DNA from: Spirochaetota bacterium
GTDB taxonomy: Bacteria; Spirochaetota; UBA4802; UBA5368
NCBI GenBank assembly: GCA_035477215.1
Contig: DATIKU010000008.1
Span: 1 to 64,000 of the forward strand
Direction of reading: 5' to 3'
Length of the DNA: 64,000 bases
Each line of letters opens with the position of its first letter. The first letter of the stretch is position 1. Under the pieces are notes generated by a model. That model had not been told where the DNA came from. It searched no databases and saw nothing but the letters and a program-made list of their open reading frames with translations. Below are positions 20,643 through 31,304 of the stretch, one piece after another. Both the position numbers and the translations under genes were made by a program.

Positions 20643-22196
<1,554 letters not shown>

Positions 22197-22596: not shown

Positions 22597-25434
22597 ATGA
22601 ATACCACACTGCCCCTTATCAAGAAAACGATTTACCTCGAAACGGTCGATGGCTCCGGCGCGAAGGATATTCCGTTCGACGCCGACTTCGGCGGCATTGC
22701 GGTTGCGTTGATATTCTCGTCCAAACCGGTGAAGGCAGGCCAGTATAACGCACTCGTACGCCGGCTCGAATCCAGAGGGCTTACGGTCGTCTCGCACCAC
22801 ATTGAGAACACGGACCCGCACGCGCTCGGCCCGGTACGCGCGGCGGTCCGCGATATAAACGCCGCTCTTACCCTGGGCGACTGCCTCGTGGTTTCATTCG
22901 GCGAAAGCCACGCGCTCACGGTGCTGCTGTGCCATCTGCTGAAAACCGGTCTGCCGCTCGAAGACGCAATCCATACCGTAAGGGAAACCCGAAACGATCC
23001 GCTGTTCCTCGACGAAGACCTCTCTTTTCTTCTCGAATTTCAGAAAATGCCGGGGCGAAAAGCGGACTTCCCCGCGGAGTACGAACGTTTTCGCACCGAT
23101 TATTCGATTGAACTGAAACCCCTCGCCCAAGGCCTGCCAAAAATCGAGGGCCTGTCGGGCCCGGCCATCCTCGACGCCATCGCGGTACGCGGCCCGCAGG
23201 CAGACGCCGGCACCAGTCGGCCGGAAACCGGGGACGATGCGCCCTCGAAACCGCTGGTCACCGAGCTGCCGGACCCTTATGAATTTCAGCTCGAACGATT
23301 CATCGATGAAGACCGCGCGGCATACCCGGAAATCTCCGCCGAGTCCACGCTGTACGATGAGGCGTTCATCGTTGAGCAACCCGCCCTTCCGGAGCCTGAA
23401 ACGCTCGCTACGGAAGAACGGATACCGTCCGAAGGCGCGGCCGAAGCCGCACCCCGCGCGGGTGCGCCCGAGACGATACCGGAGATGTCCGCGGAAGCTG
23501 TGTCCGGGGAGGAAACGCTCCCGCGTCCCGGGCGTCGGGCCCGCGCCGGAGCGGGCGGTAAAGCCGTTGCGCAGACGGGCTCGTTCTACGCATCGCTGCG
23601 CTTTAAACTGATATCGATCATCTCGCTGGTCATAACACTCTCCCTGTCAGGGATGATCTTCCTCGCCACCTACTTCTTCAAGGAAGACAACAAGCTCAGG
23701 GTCGAGGAGAACAACCACAAGATCTCCGAGGTCGTCGCGCTCAAGGCCCAGGGTGACATTGAAACGCTTATAAAGCGGGCCGAACTCGTCGCCGGAAAAA
23801 TCGCCGGCGCTCCGGCCGCGGCCGCACTGGCGGGCGAGCCCTACATCATCCACGCCGCAATCGCCCGGCGGGGACAGGGCGGTCCCGCGTTCGTATTCGC
23901 CGGGACCGCGCGCAACACGGCCCTCATGGGCAGGCTGCAACTGACCGCGGAGTCTCTCGAAACGGCGCTGAAGGGAACCGGGGGAAACATCGTCCGATCG
24001 TTCAACGGGGAGACCGTCATTCAGAACGTGTCGCCGCTGGTCAACCTTCCCCTCCTGGCGCTCGGCGTCCCGCTCGAGCGGGACGCCTCCGGCAGGGTGG
24101 GCTCGGTGCTCGCCTGCCTGGTAAGCCCGGAAAACCTCATGAAGGCATTCCAGTCGCGCGGCGGTATAACCACCGTTTTCATGATAAACGAGGCCGGCGA
24201 CGTCATCGCGCACCCGGATACGAGCATCGTCGTCTCCGGCGGCAACTTCATCGAGCTTCCCATCGTGAAGATGATGATGACGAGCAAGATTGACAACGGC
24301 CAGACGCGCTATCGCGATGAGAAAAGGGTATTCCACATCGGCTCGTTCAGGAAGGTATCCACAGGAGGCCTTGGCGTCATCGCCACCGTCGAGGAACGGA
24401 AGGCCTTCGAGGAAGTCTATAATATCCAGCGGCGCAATATCTACATCATGGTGATCGTCCTTACTGTCGTCGTTTTGATAATCTTCTATTTCGGCAACAC
24501 CATCACCACGCCAATCATAGACCTTGTATGGGCGACAAAGAAAATAAAGGAGGGTGACTACCGGGTCGACATCCTGCCAACCACGCGCGACGAGATCGGC
24601 GAGCTCACCGCCTCGTTCATCGAAATGGGCCGGGGCCTGGAGGAGCGCGAGAAGATCAAGTCAGCTTTCGGCAAGTTCGTGAACAAGGATATCGCGGAAG
24701 CCGCCATGCGCGGCTCGCTCGCCCTCGGAGGCGAGCGCAAGACGGTGGCGATACTGTTCACGGATATCCGCTCATTCACCTCCATTTCCGAGAAGCTCCA
24801 GCCGGAGGAGGTGGTAGAGTTCCTTAACCAGTATTTGACGCGCATGGTCGAGTGCGTCAACCTCACCAACGGCGTCGTCGACAAGTTTATCGGCGACGCG
24901 ATCATGGCGGTATGGGGAACGCCCGTTTCAAGGGGCAATGACACCGAGGACGCCATCAATAGCGCGCTTTTGATGCGGAAATCGCTTGTCGAATTCAATA
25001 GCGACCGCGGCAGCCCGGGGAAACCGGTCATCAACATCGGCTGCGGCGTTAACACCGGTCTCGTGCTCGCCGGCCAGATCGGTTCGGACGACCGCATGGA
25101 GTACACCATCATCGGCGACGCGGTGAACCTCGCCTCGCGCATCGAGTCGCTCACCAGGCCCCTCGGCACCGACATCCTGATAAGCGAGGACTCGTACGAG
25201 CTGGTGAAGGGCGTCTTTTCCGTCGTCCCCATGCAGGCCATAAAAGTAAAGGGCAAGGAAAAGCCTCAGCGGATATACGCCGTGATGGGAAGGCTCGACG
25301 ATCCGGGCAGGCCCGCCTCGGTCGAAGAGCTCCGCGCGCATGCCGGAATAATTACGCCGCCCGAAACCGCCGGGCAGGCCCTCGAGGAGTTGCCGGCGGG
25401 GAGCGAATTGAAATATGAGATCGTTGAACACTAA
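22597..25434 (+). CDS. Class III adenylate cyclase with phosphatase-like N-domain
   Basis: About 945 residues from ATG 22597 (a GTG at 22567 is also in frame). Order: a cytoplasmic N-terminal domain (about 15-130) that reads like a dual-specificity phosphatase fold; an acidic/proline linker; a first membrane helix near 340; a periplasmic Cache-like domain; a second helix near 620; HAMP; and a class III cyclase domain (about 715-885). Catalytic residues are present: metal Asp in FTDIRSFTS and KFIGDAIMAVWG, and NxxxR in VNLASR. The substrate-specifying Lys and Thr (KF and EYT) favour ATP, so cAMP is the likely product. It overlaps the next gene by 20 bp. The N-domain lacks the phosphatase Cys and Arg. 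Confidence 0.88.
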   Translation: MNTTLPLIKKTIYLETVDGSGAKDIPFDADFGGIAVALIFSSKPVKAGQYNALVRRLESRGLTVVSHHIENTDPHALGPVRAAVRDINAALTLGDCLVVSFGESHALTVLLCHLLKTGLPLEDAIHTVRETRNDPLFLDEDLSFLLEFQKMPGRKADFPAEYERFRTDYSIELKPLAQGLPKIEGLSGPAILDAIAVRGPQADAGTSRPETGDDAPSKPLVTELPDPYEFQLERFIDEDRAAYPEISAESTLYDEAFIVEQPALPEPETLATEERIPSEGAAEAAPRAGAPETIPEMSAEAVSGEETLPRPGRRARAGAGGKAVAQTGSFYASLRFKLISIISLVITLSLSGMIFLATYFFKEDNKLRVEENNHKISEVVALKAQGDIETLIKRAELVAGKIAGAPAAAALAGEPYIIHAAIARRGQGGPAFVFAGTARNTALMGRLQLTAESLETALKGTGGNIVRSFNGETVIQNVSPLVNLPLLALGVPLERDASGRVGSVLACLVSPENLMKAFQSRGGITTVFMINEAGDVIAHPDTSIVVSGGNFIELPIVKMMMTSKIDNGQTRYRDEKRVFHIGSFRKVSTGGLGVIATVEERKAFEEVYNIQRRNIYIMVIVLTVVVLIIFYFGNTITTPIIDLVWATKKIKEGDYRVDILPTTRDEIGELTASFIEMGRGLEEREKIKSAFGKFVNKDIAEAAMRGSLALGGERKTVAILFTDIRSFTSISEKLQPEEVVEFLNQYLTRMVECVNLTNGVVDKFIGDAIMAVWGTPVSRGNDTEDAINSALLMRKSLVEFNSDRGSPGKPVINIGCGVNTGLVLAGQIGSDDRMEYTIIGDAVNLASRIESLTRPLGTDILISEDSYELVKGVFSVVPMQAIKVKGKEKPQRIYAVMGRLDDPGRPASVEELRAHAGIITPPETAGQALEELPAGSELKYEIVEH

Positions 25435-27550
25435 CGTACTCGTTCCGGCCGCGGGCGCCGTCATCATCGCCGTCTTTTCCCTCCTCCTGTACCTCGACAT
25501 GAGGGGAGGAAAGGGCGTCGCGCATAACGAAGAGATCGGCACCATCACGTTCAAACGGCAGACAGCCCAGCGCAAGTACGCGTCGCAGGTCGTCTGGGAC
25601 GATCTCGCCCAGAACATCCCGGTCTACAATTACGACTCCATCCGCACTTCCGACATGTCCGAGGCCGTCATAAAGCTCAAGGACGGCACTGAGATCGCGT
25701 TAAACGAGAACAGCATGATTCTGCTCGCCATGACGAAGGACGACGTAAGCGTCGACTTCACGCGCGGCTCGATCGCGGCCAACCGTGACAATGCGGACAA
25801 AAAGCTCAACATCACTGCGGGAGGCGCCGTCGTCGCGCTCGGTGAAGGCGCGCTGAACCTGTCGCGCGGCAGGGGCGAGGGGCTCGACCTTACTCTGAAC
25901 AGGGGAAGCGCCCGGGTCAAATTGGGCGAGAGCGAAAAAGACGTGGCGACCGACCAGCGCATCGTGGTTGCGGACGACGTGCGCGTCTTCAATCTTACGA
26001 TACGGCTGTCCTCGCCGGGACCAAACGAATACTTCTTCACGCCCGCCGGTAAAGCGACGATCGCGTTCTCATGGGAACCGGCCCTGGGCGCGGGTCAGGC
26101 CTGGCTCGAAACGGCCGCTGACCAGTCGTTCGCGTCCATCACCGGCGCCCGGCCCGTTGCCGGAAAAGCCGCGACGCTGGCGCTGCCCGAAGGCATATCC
26201 TACTGGCGCGTGCGCACCGCCGATCGTGCGACCGGCAAGATCGAGGTAAGCGAAAGCCGCCGCCTGGTGTTACTGAAAAGAGAACCGCTCGTGCCGATAA
26301 CCCCGTCCGACGGGGCGGTTGTCCGGTATACGCTGAACGCACCCATCATCCTGTTCCGATGGTCCGAAAACGCCGCGGGGGGCATGTCAACCCTTTCGGT
26401 CTTTCGCGACGCGAAGATGGAAAACCAAATCAAATCGGTAAGCATTGCCGGAACGTCCATCGCGGTCGACGATCTCGCCCTGGGCACCTATTTCTGGCGG
26501 GTCGAAAGGACCATATCGGCCGGGGGCAAACAGATTAAGGATACCGGCGCTTTGCGCCGTCTCGTGGTCGAACGAAGCGATACGCCGGTGGCGCCGGAAC
26601 TCGTCTATCCCGTCGAGGGGGCGGCCGTCAACCGCCTCGCGCTGGAACGCGAGGCCGCGGCGTTCACCTGGAAGAAGAACACCGACCACCCTCTCACGCG
26701 CGTCGAGATCGCCCGCGACCGGGCGTTTGCGCAAATCGTCCATACCGGCGATGCGCGCGGCAACGTTATGCGTTTCGCACGGGCGTTCGAGCCGGGCGCG
26801 TACTACTGGCGGGCCGTCGGCATAATAGACGAAAAGACCTCCACGCCTCCGTCGGCCTCGCGCGGGTTTCGCGTCGTCGAGACCGGGGACATCACGCTTG
26901 TCGGCCCGGCCGAAGGTGCCATTGTCGCGCCCGAGGCGCCGGCGGAAAACGCATCGGTCGATTTTGCGTGGAGGCGGAGCGGAATTGCCGGTCGCTACCG
27001 GCTCCAGGTGGCACGCGATGCGTCGTTCGCCGCCGGTTATCGCGAGCGCACAATCGACGGCACCGTAGTCACACTGGACGACATCGAGCCCGGGGATTAC
27101 GCATGGCGCGTGCTGCTCCTCGACGATGAAGGCAACGAGCTGATGAGAAGCGCGCCGCGCCTTCTGGGCGTCCGCCGGCCCCTGCCCCGGCCCGAAGTAC
27201 TCTCGCCCGCGGACGGAAATATTGTGGACATGCGCGACAGCGATGCGCTCAATTTCCGCTGGAGGCCGGTAAAGGACGCCACGCAGTACCGGATAGGGCT
27301 GTACCACGTGAAGAAAGGAATACATAACAATATTCTCACCAAAGAGACCCGCGATACCGCGATCGCCATGACCGAGCTTGAAAGACTCGACGTGGGCGAC
27401 TTCTACTGGACGCTGCAGGCGCTGGAGGTCAGCGGGGGCCGTACCGTCGCGCGCCGGAGCCCCGAGGTGCGCTCGCGCTTCAGCATAACGCTCGGCGGCG
27501 CGGCCCGGAAACCGGAAATACAATCGCCACGGAAGATCTATGTCGAATAG
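25415..27550 (+). CDS. FecR-domain protein with fibronectin-like repeats
   Basis: 711 residues. The N-terminal anchor (VLVPAAGAVIIAVFSLLLYL, residues 9-28) is followed by a FecR-type domain: WDDLAQNIPVYNYDSIRTSDMSEAVIKL, then NENSMILL and the RGSI strand. Five or so beta-sandwich modules follow, each ending in a YWRVR / YFWRVER / YYWRAVG / YAWRVLL-type strand (about 200-690), like Fn3 modules of spirochaetal surface proteins. The bulk is periplasmic. It may bind peptidoglycan, sugar or protein and feed a signal to the cyclase whose 3' end it overlaps. GGGGAG stands upstream of the ATG inside the cyclase gene. Not a sigma regulator here: no FecI-type gene is near. Confidence 0.8.
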   Translation: MRSLNTNVLVPAAGAVIIAVFSLLLYLDMRGGKGVAHNEEIGTITFKRQTAQRKYASQVVWDDLAQNIPVYNYDSIRTSDMSEAVIKLKDGTEIALNENSMILLAMTKDDVSVDFTRGSIAANRDNADKKLNITAGGAVVALGEGALNLSRGRGEGLDLTLNRGSARVKLGESEKDVATDQRIVVADDVRVFNLTIRLSSPGPNEYFFTPAGKATIAFSWEPALGAGQAWLETAADQSFASITGARPVAGKAATLALPEGISYWRVRTADRATGKIEVSESRRLVLLKREPLVPITPSDGAVVRYTLNAPIILFRWSENAAGGMSTLSVFRDAKMENQIKSVSIAGTSIAVDDLALGTYFWRVERTISAGGKQIKDTGALRRLVVERSDTPVAPELVYPVEGAAVNRLALEREAAAFTWKKNTDHPLTRVEIARDRAFAQIVHTGDARGNVMRFARAFEPGAYYWRAVGIIDEKTSTPPSASRGFRVVETGDITLVGPAEGAIVAPEAPAENASVDFAWRRSGIAGRYRLQVARDASFAAGYRERTIDGTVVTLDDIEPGDYAWRVLLLDDEGNELMRSAPRLLGVRRPLPRPEVLSPADGNIVDMRDSDALNFRWRPVKDATQYRIGLYHVKKGIHNNILTKETRDTAIAMTELERLDVGDFYWTLQALEVSGGRTVARRSPEVRSRFSITLGGAARKPEIQSPRKIYVE

Positions 27551-28937
27551 ACCGATCCAGTCATGGCCGGCCGCCTTTGTCCTCTGCATATGCCTGATCG
27601 CATCGTTCAATGCAAAGACCCACGCCGCTGAAAGCCCAGCCTCCGCCGGCAAAGCCTCTATCGCCTGGGAGGCCGTGGAGGGCGCGATACGCTATGAAGT
27701 GATGATCCGCGACGAAAAGGGCTCGATTGTTTTAAAAGAGACAGTGGAGACCAACCGGGTGAGTTTCTCGCTGGCGCCGGGGAAGTATTCGATCAACATC
27801 ATCGCCATCAACAAATTCAACAAGCCTCATTCAGAATCCGGACGGGAGGATTTCGAGATCGCAAAGAGGCCCTCGTACCGCCAGGTGACCGAAGGCACGC
27901 TCATGCGCATGGCGGCCGGACTGCACTTTTCGATTCCGCTGGCGCCCTGGGACGAATTCCTCAACCCCGCACTTGGCGCGTCGCTTCGCGTCGGCCTTAC
28001 CGGCACGAGCGGCCTTCGCCGCTACGGCGGGATCGAGGCCGATCTGCGCGCGCTCGGCTACCGCGGCTCCGGCGCGGCCTCCTCGTTGATACCGCTCATG
28101 GCGGGCCTCGGCGCGTACGCGCGCATGCCGCTCGGAACTTCGACGGCGCTTTTAGTCCGCGGCGGCGGCGGCATGGCCTTTTCGCGCCTGCTTTACGATG
28201 ATGCCTCCGGCCAGGAAACGGTCTCCTGGTCGGGGAGGCCGTACTGGGGGGCGGGGCTCGCGCTGGAGTATTCCCTGCCACTGGGATTTTTCATTGAAGG
28301 CGGCGTCGAGTACCAAAACATCATGCTCTCGCGAAAGGCCCTTGCGAGCGTCGATGCGTTCCTTTCGGGCGGCATGCTTTTCAACTGGGAGGCGGTCGAA
28401 ACGCGCAAGGGCGCCATCACGCAGACATCGTCGGCGGTGCTTCCCGTGGCCGTTCGGATTTCGGCCGGGATTCCGTACGTAACGCTCCTTGGCGACTTCG
28501 GGTACGTGAAGCGTGAGACCCTCAACGGGATCGACGCGAGCCTCGCCCTGCAGGGAATGCGCGGCCTTATGCGCTTCGCGGGCCTCTCCTTCGATTTCGT
28601 GTACGCGGAATTCGAGGGCAAAGGAAGAGCCGAAGGCATGACCTCGTATCTGAACGGGGCGAGCCTTCTTTTCACCACCGACTTCGCCTTCCCGGTCAAT
28701 CTTCTACTGAAAGCCGGCGGAGGCATCGCGGCATCGAAGCTTGAGTATGAAGATCCCTTTACTTTATCGCCGAAAACAATCTGGACCGAGGATACCTACT
28801 ATACCGCCGGGGGCGGTCTGGAATTGCGCGTGTACGCCGGTTTATTTGTCGAAGCGCTGGCCGGTTATTATTATATTGATCAGGGAGGCGGCGTCAACGC
28901 CCTGAAGATGACCCTGCGGGCCGGGGTGCGGCTGTAA
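27540..28937 (+). CDS. Outer-membrane beta-barrel protein with Fn3-like N-domain
   Basis: 465 residues. The signal peptide SWPAAFVLCICLIASFNAKTHAA ends near residue 30. Next comes one Fn3-like module (ASIAWEAVEGAIRYEVMIRDEKG ... FSLAPGKYSINIIAIN, about 36-110), similar in style to those of the upstream protein. The remaining 350 residues alternate aromatic/glycine-rich strands (for example FFIEGGVEYQNIML, LFVEALAGYYYID) and end LKMTLRAGVRL, as expected for a beta-barrel. It overlaps the FecR-domain gene by 11 bp, so the three genes form one coupled operon. It could be the outer-membrane end of an envelope-spanning signalling assembly. Confidence 0.7.
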   Translation: MSNRPIQSWPAAFVLCICLIASFNAKTHAAESPASAGKASIAWEAVEGAIRYEVMIRDEKGSIVLKETVETNRVSFSLAPGKYSINIIAINKFNKPHSESGREDFEIAKRPSYRQVTEGTLMRMAAGLHFSIPLAPWDEFLNPALGASLRVGLTGTSGLRRYGGIEADLRALGYRGSGAASSLIPLMAGLGAYARMPLGTSTALLVRGGGGMAFSRLLYDDASGQETVSWSGRPYWGAGLALEYSLPLGFFIEGGVEYQNIMLSRKALASVDAFLSGGMLFNWEAVETRKGAITQTSSAVLPVAVRISAGIPYVTLLGDFGYVKRETLNGIDASLALQGMRGLMRFAGLSFDFVYAEFEGKGRAEGMTSYLNGASLLFTTDFAFPVNLLLKAGGGIAASKLEYEDPFTLSPKTIWTEDTYYTAGGGLELRVYAGLFVEALAGYYYIDQGGGVNALKMTLRAGVRL

Positions 28938-29020: not shown

Positions 29021-29710
29021 ATGAAATCGATACGACTGTTCCCCAATCGCCTGCTGTATCTACCGCCGCTCCTTCTCGTCGCGACGCTGTTGTCGTGCGA
29101 GGTGCAGGATTTCGGGGAGATCCTCGAGGCCGCCGACGGGGAGATCCGCTGGTACTCCGTGACGCAGCACGCGGGCGTTTCACTGCCGCTCGAGATCGCC
29201 GCGGACGGATCGTTCACCGAGCCGCGGAACGCGAACATGATCACCATCGTCGCCGTGCTCCCCGAGCCCGTCGACCCGGCGTCGATCGGCCCGGCGAATA
29301 TCGACTTCATCGGCCGCACCAACGCCGCCGCGGTGTGCGACCCGCCGTTTTCCGTCAGCATGGACGCGGCGCATACGCAGGTGCGCGTTACCGTGTTCGG
29401 CCTTACCGATATCGCACGCTACCGGATACGGCTAAAGAACGAGAACGGGGTCGAGCTCAGCCAGCGCGTCTTTGCCCGTTTCATGGGCGATGTGCTTTCC
29501 GGTGATAGTTTGGTGGACACGATCGATTCCGACAAGGTGCTCGCATTCGTTAATGATCCGGACGACCTCGATCCAACCAACGAACTTCACGTCAGGGCCG
29601 ACATCGATTGCGACTTCATTCACTTTACGGGCGACCTGACGACACTGCAAAGCGGTTCACCGGCGGGATATCCAAGAACGCTCACGGCGACCGTACCTGA
29701 CTTTCCGTAA
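29021..29710 (+). CDS. Putative lipoprotein of unknown function
   Basis: 229 residues. The signal sequence LLYLPPLLLVATLLSC has a spirochaetal-style lipobox with Cys at residue 26. The mature part looks like a bacterial Ig-like domain of about 120 residues (ITIVAVLPEPVDPASIGPANIDF, VRVTVFGLTDIARYRIRL), then a C-terminal segment with two more cysteines in CDPPF and DIDCDF. No catalytic motif. It lies 83 bp after the outer-membrane protein and 19 bp before another lipoprotein, so it may belong to the same or a follow-on transcript. Surface or periplasmic location inferred from the lipobox. Confidence 0.6.
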   Translation: MKSIRLFPNRLLYLPPLLLVATLLSCEVQDFGEILEAADGEIRWYSVTQHAGVSLPLEIAADGSFTEPRNANMITIVAVLPEPVDPASIGPANIDFIGRTNAAAVCDPPFSVSMDAAHTQVRVTVFGLTDIARYRIRLKNENGVELSQRVFARFMGDVLSGDSLVDTIDSDKVLAFVNDPDDLDPTNELHVRADIDCDFIHFTGDLTTLQSGSPAGYPRTLTATVPDFP

Positions 29711-29729
29711 GGCGCACCGGCAGGAAACC

Positions 29730-31304
29730 ATGATGAAACTCATTGCACAATATAAACGCACCTTCCTTCTCCTCGCTTTCGCGACGGCGGTGACGACAGG
29801 CTCCTGCGGCGGCGAGAATTACTGGAGCGAGCTCAAAGGCGGATCGTCCTCGGGTACGCTTCCGCCCTCCTTCCCCGTCGGCATGTACGTGAGCACCACC
29901 GGAAGCGATGTAACCGGTGACGGAAGCCCGGACAATCCCTATGCGACCATTCAGAACGGGACAACACAGGCGGCTTCTAATGGACTTCACGCGGTCTTCG
30001 TGGAGGCCGGCACCTATTCGATTCCAGCGGAGATAACGCTTATCGAGGGGATTTCCCTGTACGGAGGTTTCCGCCCGGGCGACTGGAACGACCGCAGCGT
30101 AACGCCCGCGGCGCGCGATACGGGAAGTCCATACTGCACCGAAATTATATACACCGCCGCACCGGCAATCCGCGGCACCGGGCCGATATCCTCGGCAACT
30201 GTCGTAGAAGGATTCGTAATTTTCGGCCCGACCGCGTTTTCCAACGAGAACAACTCCAATCCAAGAATATCTAATAACACGATCGTCGGCACCGACATCG
30301 GGACCAGTTACGGCATTCACAATCTGAATTCGTCCCCGAACATTCAGTTTAATATCATAATCGGCGCCTCCTTCATCGCGGTCAATGCCTATGGCATCTA
30401 TAATTCCACCGGCGCGACACCGACCATCACCGCAAATACCATTTATGGATCCCTGGTGACCAGTTCGGACACCGCGAACGGCGTATGCAATACGAACGCT
30501 TCAACCGATCCAATAATCGCAGGCAACACCATATACGGCGGTCCAGCCGCCAACACTTCACGCGGAATCTACAACACAAACGGCGCCGAACCGGTAATCA
30601 TCGGAAACCGGATAGCGAGCGATTCCGCCACCGCCAGCTACGCCATCCATAACGAGGACTGCATCAATGTCGTGCTGAACGGCAACGATATTTTCCCCGG
30701 AAACGGATCGGCTTCCTCTGTCGGTGTTTACTGCAGCAATTCGCCAATCTGGATCCTGAACAACGCCGTTCGTGCAGGCGGGGGGGCAACGACCGACTAC
30801 TCCTTCGGCATACGGCTTGCGGCGAATTCGGACGCCAGCATTTTCAACAACACGATCGACGGCGGCACGGCCGATACCGGCTCGTACGGCATCCGCATAT
30901 TCAACGCCGCCCCGCTGATACGGAACAACATCATCTTCATATCCGGTTCGGCGCCTCAAAGAGTGGGAATTGTGGAGGGTAACCCCTCTAACTCAGATCC
31001 TGTTTTTTTTACAAACAATAACATCTTCGACTGTCCCATCCTATACCACGACGATGACCCGGCCGGTATCGTTGACGACATTGTCGACTGGAACCAGCTT
31101 AATGATCCCCTGAACACAACACAGGGGGGGCCGGCCCAATTCAATATATCGGTGCCACTTACCCTCGACGCCGATTTCCGGATACTCGCCCCGCCTCTGG
31201 TTGTATGGGAAGGTGGAGCCGATCTTACCGGATTTCTGGATGACGACAAGGACGAGAACCCGCGCACCGTCCCCTGGTCCATCGGCGCGTACGAGTACGA
31301 CTGA
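29730..31304 (+). CDS. Lipoprotein with right-handed beta-helix domain
   Basis: 524 residues. The signal ends at a lipobox, TTGSC (Cys about 27). After a serine/glycine linker comes MYVSTTGSDVTGDGSPDNPYATIQ, the DUF1565-type opening of parallel beta-helix proteins. About 10 coils follow with the repeating pattern NTIYG/NNTI...YGIHN, rich in Asn and Gly, and the end VPWSIGAYEYD is typical of the family. Expected to be exported and to bind or shield surface glycans; no polysaccharide lyase catalytic site is visible. AGGAAACC precedes ATG 29730. The repeated internal coils make it a likely site of slippage or variation. Confidence 0.75.
   Translation: MMKLIAQYKRTFLLLAFATAVTTGSCGGENYWSELKGGSSSGTLPPSFPVGMYVSTTGSDVTGDGSPDNPYATIQNGTTQAASNGLHAVFVEAGTYSIPAEITLIEGISLYGGFRPGDWNDRSVTPAARDTGSPYCTEIIYTAAPAIRGTGPISSATVVEGFVIFGPTAFSNENNSNPRISNNTIVGTDIGTSYGIHNLNSSPNIQFNIIIGASFIAVNAYGIYNSTGATPTITANTIYGSLVTSSDTANGVCNTNASTDPIIAGNTIYGGPAANTSRGIYNTNGAEPVIIGNRIASDSATASYAIHNEDCINVVLNGNDIFPGNGSASSVGVYCSNSPIWILNNAVRAGGGATTDYSFGIRLAANSDASIFNNTIDGGTADTGSYGIRIFNAAPLIRNNIIFISGSAPQRVGIVEGNPSNSDPVFFTNNNIFDCPILYHDDDPAGIVDDIVDWNQLNDPLNTTQGGPAQFNISVPLTLDADFRILAPPLVVWEGGADLTGFLDDDKDENPRTVPWSIGAYEYD

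Follow-up and report, generated by a model that had tools for sequence, protein, structure and literature searches.

An adenylate cyclase with a CHASE2 domain, a FecR-domain outer-membrane protein, a TPR protein and a phosphodiesterase make up a gene cluster of Campylobacterota for which one cyclic adenosine monophosphate (cAMP) pathway has been proposed from gene neighbourhoods only (PMC9239204). In Sinorhizobium meliloti, the outer-membrane barrel NsrA raises cAMP via the CHASE2 cyclases CyaD1-CyaD2-CyaK, and this cAMP is read by the CRP-family protein Clr (PMC13001267, PMC5498481). The present analysis concerns a trio of overlapping genes, encoding a membrane-spanning cyclase, a FecR/Fn3 protein and a beta-barrel protein, at 22597-28937 of a 64,000-nucleotide stretch of DNA (hereafter the window) from a Spirochaetota bacterium (GenBank assembly GCA_035477215.1, contig DATIKU010000008.1). 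We favour, with a probability of roughly 0.6, the reading that the three genes form one translationally coupled, envelope-spanning signalling unit in which a surface barrel would act via a FecR/Fn3 rod on cAMP synthesis. As such, the trio is a concrete candidate for the coupling of the cell surface to cAMP in spirochaetes.

Like the Campylobacterota cluster, the trio combines genes for a class III cyclase, a FecR-domain protein and an envelope protein, but CHASE2 is missing, with none of the 41 trio cyclases scanned giving a match at an E-value of 0.001. A Cache-like sensor is found here instead; the FecR protein of the cluster is described as an outer-membrane protein, and the cluster includes a phosphodiesterase and a TPR protein, whereas a trio with an Fn3 rod and a barrel has not been described for it (PMC9239204). 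The S. meliloti system resembles the proposed working of the trio in leading from a barrel to cAMP via transmembrane class III cyclases and resembles its gene content in having a FecR-domain protein, SMc02177, encoded close to CyaD1, but it differs in its CHASE2 cyclases and in that SMc02177 is dispensable for signal perception. Among clusters of this kind, a ligand-dependent rise of cAMP through a barrel is reported for NsrA only (PMC13001267). The Burkholderia BiofilmReg operon (PMC5192318) likewise joins a FecR-domain periplasmic protein to a transmembrane sensor with no sigma factor, but its components are a LysM-FecR protein and a CHASE2 histidine kinase as output, with no cyclase or barrel. 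The first-pass annotation had put the trio forward as its best candidate for an undescribed system. This stands for spirochaetes, no paper on the trio having been found there in an open-access search, but sets of cyclase, FecR and outer-membrane protein are already known in Campylobacterota (PMC9239204) and Sinorhizobium (PMC13001267, PMC5498481). The trio adds to these a use of the FecR domain without a sigma factor, and a sensor domain differing from that of the known cyclase clusters.

Gene order and its conservation in Spirochaetota

All three genes lie on the plus strand. The gene for a predicted class III (IIIb-type) adenylyl cyclase of 945 amino acids (22597-25434; reading frames, Pfam and transmembrane prediction) is followed by that of the FecR/Fn3 protein of 711 amino acids (25415-27550; PF04773, transmembrane helix and structure model) and that of an outer-membrane barrel protein of 465 amino acids (27540-28937; structure model), a relative of TP0483 of Treponema pallidum. 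These coordinates and the overlaps of 20 bp (25415-25434) and 11 bp (27540-27550), as first annotated, proved exact on recheck. The overlaps seem to fix short C-terminal motifs, KYEI in the cyclase and IYxE in the FecR protein, apparently because the ATG of the next gene sits within them.

A whole-protein search of a sample of 296 Spirochaetota genomes found a homolog of the FecR/Fn3 protein in 139 of them, representing 77 of 138 genera. Approximately 95 loci were fetched by FecR similarity alone, with neighbours disregarded, and searched with locally built profiles; 93 FecR loci were counted. The cyclase gene lies directly upstream in 91 of these (90 called by script, the 91st, L131, having been missed through an over-long reading frame). 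The two genes overlap or are no more than 20 nt apart in 89 of 90 loci, with the identical 20-nt overlap in 27 of the 90, overlaps being taken from the longest reading frame and some being overestimated. A third Fn3/barrel gene follows FecR directly in 66 of the 93 loci and overlaps it in 42. In total, the cyclase-FecR pair was found in 48 genera and 17 families and the full trio in 36 genera and 15 families; an order held by the pair over such a range is not due to chance.

The gene order, which the first-pass annotation had left to be checked outside this genome, is also kept in an independently annotated record, plasmid pTS2 of Treponema saccharophilum, where a cyclase, a "FecR family protein" and a "hypothetical protein" overlap by 38 and 11 bp. 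One of the fetched loci (L190) places the trio on a 382-kb plasmid of T. saccharophilum, and the trio can therefore sit on a secondary replicon. When the search was extended outside the Spirochaetota, a contig scan gave two close relatives only and a plasmid collection gave one Treponema match, distant phyla being poorly covered by both.

Identity falls from 62% in the catalytic domain through 49% in HAMP, 43% in the second transmembrane segment and 40% in the FecR juxtamembrane region to approximately 24% in the Fn3 modules and 19% in the barrel; within the barrel protein, the Fn3 module reaches 30%, above the value for its barrel. We take these comparisons to mean that the core of the trio is conserved and that its outer end diversifies. 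In approximately nine paralogous loci, a fused PEGA and beta-propeller part at the end brings the FecR protein to approximately 1000-1200 residues, and no barrel gene is present. The cyclase and FecR core is unchanged in these loci, and the outermost part is therefore exchangeable. A FecR-barrel fusion had been considered for such proteins of approximately 1000 residues and was rejected, the extra part being PEGA and beta-propeller.

Directly downstream of FecR in one locus (L115) lies a gene for a 408-residue protein with a barrel-like end (LPQLGIGYRFDF), which the third-gene profile missed, and the count given above may understate how common the third gene is. At another locus (L060:4927-5820), a barrel homolog stands beside FecR on the opposite strand, giving a rearranged trio.

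The cyclase

The first gene product matches PF00211 (Guanylate_cyc; E-value 5e-28) and HAMP (E-value 4e-10), and has two transmembrane segments on either side of a Cache-like periplasmic domain of approximately 250 residues (approximately residues 361-612; 23677-24432, plus strand), whose match to dCache_1 (E-value 2.7e-7) is under the Pfam cut-off. The order of its parts is a cytoplasmic extension, a transmembrane segment, the Cache-like domain, a second transmembrane segment, HAMP and the catalytic domain. The last of these (24739-25284, plus strand) matches solved bacterial cyclases such as CyaB. Its six catalytic residues are intact: both metal Asp (D, D), Lys and Thr for adenine (K, T), and Asn (N) and Arg (R) of the transition state. 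No fewer than 87 of the 92 rows of the alignment keep each of them. This is the pattern of class IIIb cyclases, on which an adenylyl and not a guanylyl cyclase is predicted, making cAMP from ATP, in line with the earlier description of a membrane-spanning enzyme that produces a cyclic nucleotide. Among the 41 trio cyclases scanned, HAMP was found in 39 and dCache_1 in 18.

The N-terminus of the window cyclase (approximately residues 35-165; 22699-23091, plus strand) matched, by profile, a dual-specificity phosphatase of solved structure (E-value 5.7e-5), and its motif, VVSFGESHA, has the catalytic Cys and Arg substituted. N-terminal extensions are present on 28 of 90 trio cyclases, many of them showing this substituted motif, and the phosphatase catalytic motif was not found in the members. 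The domain is possibly a pseudophosphatase regulating the cyclase.

The FecR/Fn3 protein and the barrel protein

The second gene product begins with approximately 5-8 cytoplasmic residues and a single transmembrane helix (residues 6-31), followed by a FecR domain near the membrane (25634-25909, plus strand), which matches PF04773 above the Pfam cut-off, and by a periplasmic string of five Fn3/Ig-like modules (26015-27490, plus strand). The region around the FecR domain is the best-conserved stretch of the protein, and PF04773 is present in 43 of 46 relatives. In the structure model, the string has a mean predicted local distance difference test score (pLDDT) of 86 and Fn3/Ig chains as its top fold matches; no solved structure matched the protein by sequence. 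This agrees with the inner-membrane-anchored, periplasmic FecR protein with Fn3-like modules first described for the gene.

No Pfam match was obtained for the third gene product. Its N-terminus resembles a signal peptide and is followed by one Fn3-like module (residues 39-107; 27654-27860, plus strand) and an 8-stranded barrel (residues 115-285; 27882-28394, plus strand), which is common to aligned relatives and is modelled with a pLDDT of approximately 93. The fold of this single barrel matches NspA, OmpA and Ail with TM-scores of 0.58-0.69, and further matches were OmpG and FadL. The model thus supports the earlier view of a beta-barrel with one Fn3-like module, and the product is predicted to be surface-exposed in the outer membrane. 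A second eight-strand region (residues 300-465; 28437-28934, plus strand) is modelled with low confidence. Similarity between the two halves (27% identity, E-value 3e-11) indicates a tandem duplication, and the second repeat is found in this genus only, the relatives checked outside it having the first barrel alone. The duplicated region (27882-28934) may fold as a single barrel of 16 strands or as two of 8 strands each.

The Fn3 part of the barrel protein is shared with the Fn3-containing N-terminal region of NCBIfam NF047756 (LIC11435 family), a family with no function assigned that had suggested a link to Leptospira. The best NF047756 matches in the phylum adjoin this FecR gene, and no match at the curated cut-off was obtained in any genome searched, Leptospira being outside this search.

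Absence of sigma factor and TonB components

The periplasmic FecR domain and the logic of leading from surface to cytoplasm are shared with FecI-FecR-FecA signalling and with Leptospira LIC_12757/LIC_12756 (PMC12155086, PMC13118517), but the trio lacks the sigma factor and anti-sigma N-domain of both, and the TonB receptor that FecA systems have in addition. In Leptospira LIC_12756, approximately 73 residues precede the transmembrane helix, and the anti-sigma activity resides in this N-domain (PMC12155086, PMC13118517). The helix of the window protein begins at residue 6-8, and approximately 5-25 residues precede it in nearly all relatives. A cytoplasmic anti-sigma N-domain (approximately 70-90 residues) is therefore absent from the second gene product, relatives usually having fewer than 25 residues before the helix, and this strengthens the reading that the trio is not a sigma system.

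Local scans for a sigma factor or a TonB receptor were empty in the window, as first noted, and also in 90-odd homologous loci, where a check for sigma factors beside FecR in relatives found none. The locally built sigma model is biased to RpoD types, and the sigma negative leans also on coordinates in 18 whole genomes, none of the matches listed lying within approximately 7 kb of the trio. Of the TonB plug domains listed for the genome of the window, none lies on the window's contig. Membership of the trio in the FecI/FecR systems was accordingly rejected, the anti-sigma domain, an adjoining sigma gene and a TonB receptor all being missing. Elsewhere in the same genome (G000:C49:131039-134163), a gene for an extracytoplasmic function (ECF)-type sigma factor is followed by those of two large FecR proteins (open reading frames of 738 and 689 residues), in contrast to the FecR gene of the window.

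The trio of Treponema pallidum

In T. pallidum (genome G063; 1,139,633 bp), the trio corresponds to TP0485-TP0484-TP0483. Read from MSIISRVC, the third protein has 374 amino acids, a mass of 42,105.7 Da and an isoelectric point of 9.33, equal to the published values for TP0483, and four of five published TP0483 peptides lie at their published positions, the fifth being two residues off. On this agreement of size, mass, isoelectric point and peptide positions the protein was identified as TP0483, and TP0484 and TP0485 were assigned to the FecR and cyclase genes because of the gene order beside it. With its Fn3 module, its C-terminal barrel and its place downstream of the FecR gene, TP0483 is a member of the third-gene family; it aligned with the third-gene profile over positions 54-400, nearly end to end (62 bits), and its barrel part alone matched weakly (10 bits).

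TP0483 is a reported fibronectin-binding protein of T. pallidum, with reported binding stretches at 274-289 and 316-333. Work on it has treated it as an adhesin or antigen, and the passages on it in a review do not mention its operon partners (PMC5421087). Both stretches lie within the barrel part, and we read them as loops joining its strands. The cyclase of the trio is the sole PF00211 match in the genome, other cyclase classes being outside the search, and five matches to cyclic nucleotide-binding domains were found. Because the only PF00211 cyclase is encoded in the same operon as this reported syphilis adhesin, the possible role of TP0483 changes. TP0262 modulates tpr promoters, according to the title of a reference cited in PMC5956850. 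It is tempting, though rather unlikely, to regard the trio as a phylum-wide surface-receptor adenylyl cyclase, with TP0483 as the T. pallidum receptor through which contact with the host matrix would set the output of the sole recognised class III cyclase and, through it, CRP-type regulators including TP0262.

Proposed mechanism and alternative explanations

In the signalling unit that we favour, the outer-membrane barrel with its periplasmic Fn3 module would detect a surface event, and this Fn3 module would most likely touch the FecR/Fn3 rod, along which the signal would travel, the rod having a single helix as its inner-membrane anchor. The membrane-proximal FecR domain would touch the Cache-like ectodomain of the cyclase, the cyclase would shift its cAMP output through the HAMP linker, and CRP-type proteins would read the cAMP. 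An envelope-spanning sensor with a FecR relay to cAMP instead of a sigma factor had been suggested in the first-pass annotation; the conserved order and the lack of a sigma factor speak for it, and the relay from barrel through FecR to cyclase is itself our interpretation. Beyond the genes forming one conserved unit, it is the mechanism that we infer, including the contact between the parts, the direction of the signal, its ligand and cAMP as the output.

Several points weigh against this reading. For no member of the trio did we find data on interactions, cAMP or phenotypes. The surface location of the barrel is a prediction, and TP0483 goes unmentioned in a review from 2026 on the outer-membrane protein repertoire of T. 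pallidum. The third gene was not recognised in 27 of the 93 loci, several of which are propeller fusions or contig ends. The operon linkage could result from shared regulation only, and the cyclase, having its own sensor domain, could act alone. In S. meliloti, the FecR protein SMc02177 beside CyaD1 is not needed for perception of the plant signal (PMC5498481).

A rod of five Fn3 modules, with a further Fn3 module on the barrel side, would also suit a structural tether by which the FecR/Fn3 and barrel proteins join both membranes, the cyclase sensing envelope spacing or tension and not a surface ligand. No ligand site was recognised, and the barrel is highly variable. However, a soluble beta-propeller forms the end of some paralogous systems, where no barrel gene lies downstream, so attachment to the outer membrane is not universal, and we consider the tether unlikely. 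More doubtful is the view that the Cache-like domain alone senses a periplasmic small molecule, with the FecR and barrel proteins co-expressed for another job such as assembly, uptake or adhesion. Cache domains are usually direct binders of small ligands, and dCache_1 was detected on part of the cyclases as given above, but more than half of those scanned have no Cache model match, and adjacency in 91 of 93 loci across 17 families, together with translational overlap, is hard to square with loose co-expression.

The same anatomy would be expected if the FecR/barrel pair were an inhibitor holding the cyclase off and released upon envelope damage, the signal being the lost contact. The sign of control is unreadable from sequence and no specific counterpoint was identified; we nevertheless hold this arrangement to be improbable. 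Hardly credible is classical FecI-FecR-FecA surface signalling with the sigma factor encoded elsewhere, to which the PF04773 domain and the sigma-linked FecR proteins elsewhere in this genome and in Leptospira (PMC12155086) would point. Against it stand the missing anti-sigma domain, which is the seat of anti-sigma activity in Leptospira LIC12756 (PMC13118517), the loci in which neither a sigma nor a TonB gene was found, and the T. pallidum genome, in which no TonB plug domain was found.

Neighbouring genes

Upstream of the trio and divergent from it, a gene at 20643-22196 encodes a sigma-54 activator with a GAF domain, which could control the operon. Downstream, two same-strand genes with no Pfam match occupy 29021-31304, and in two relatives from the genus (L041 and L042) a 42%-identical protein pair is encoded at the position after the barrel gene, comparable to this pair of the window.

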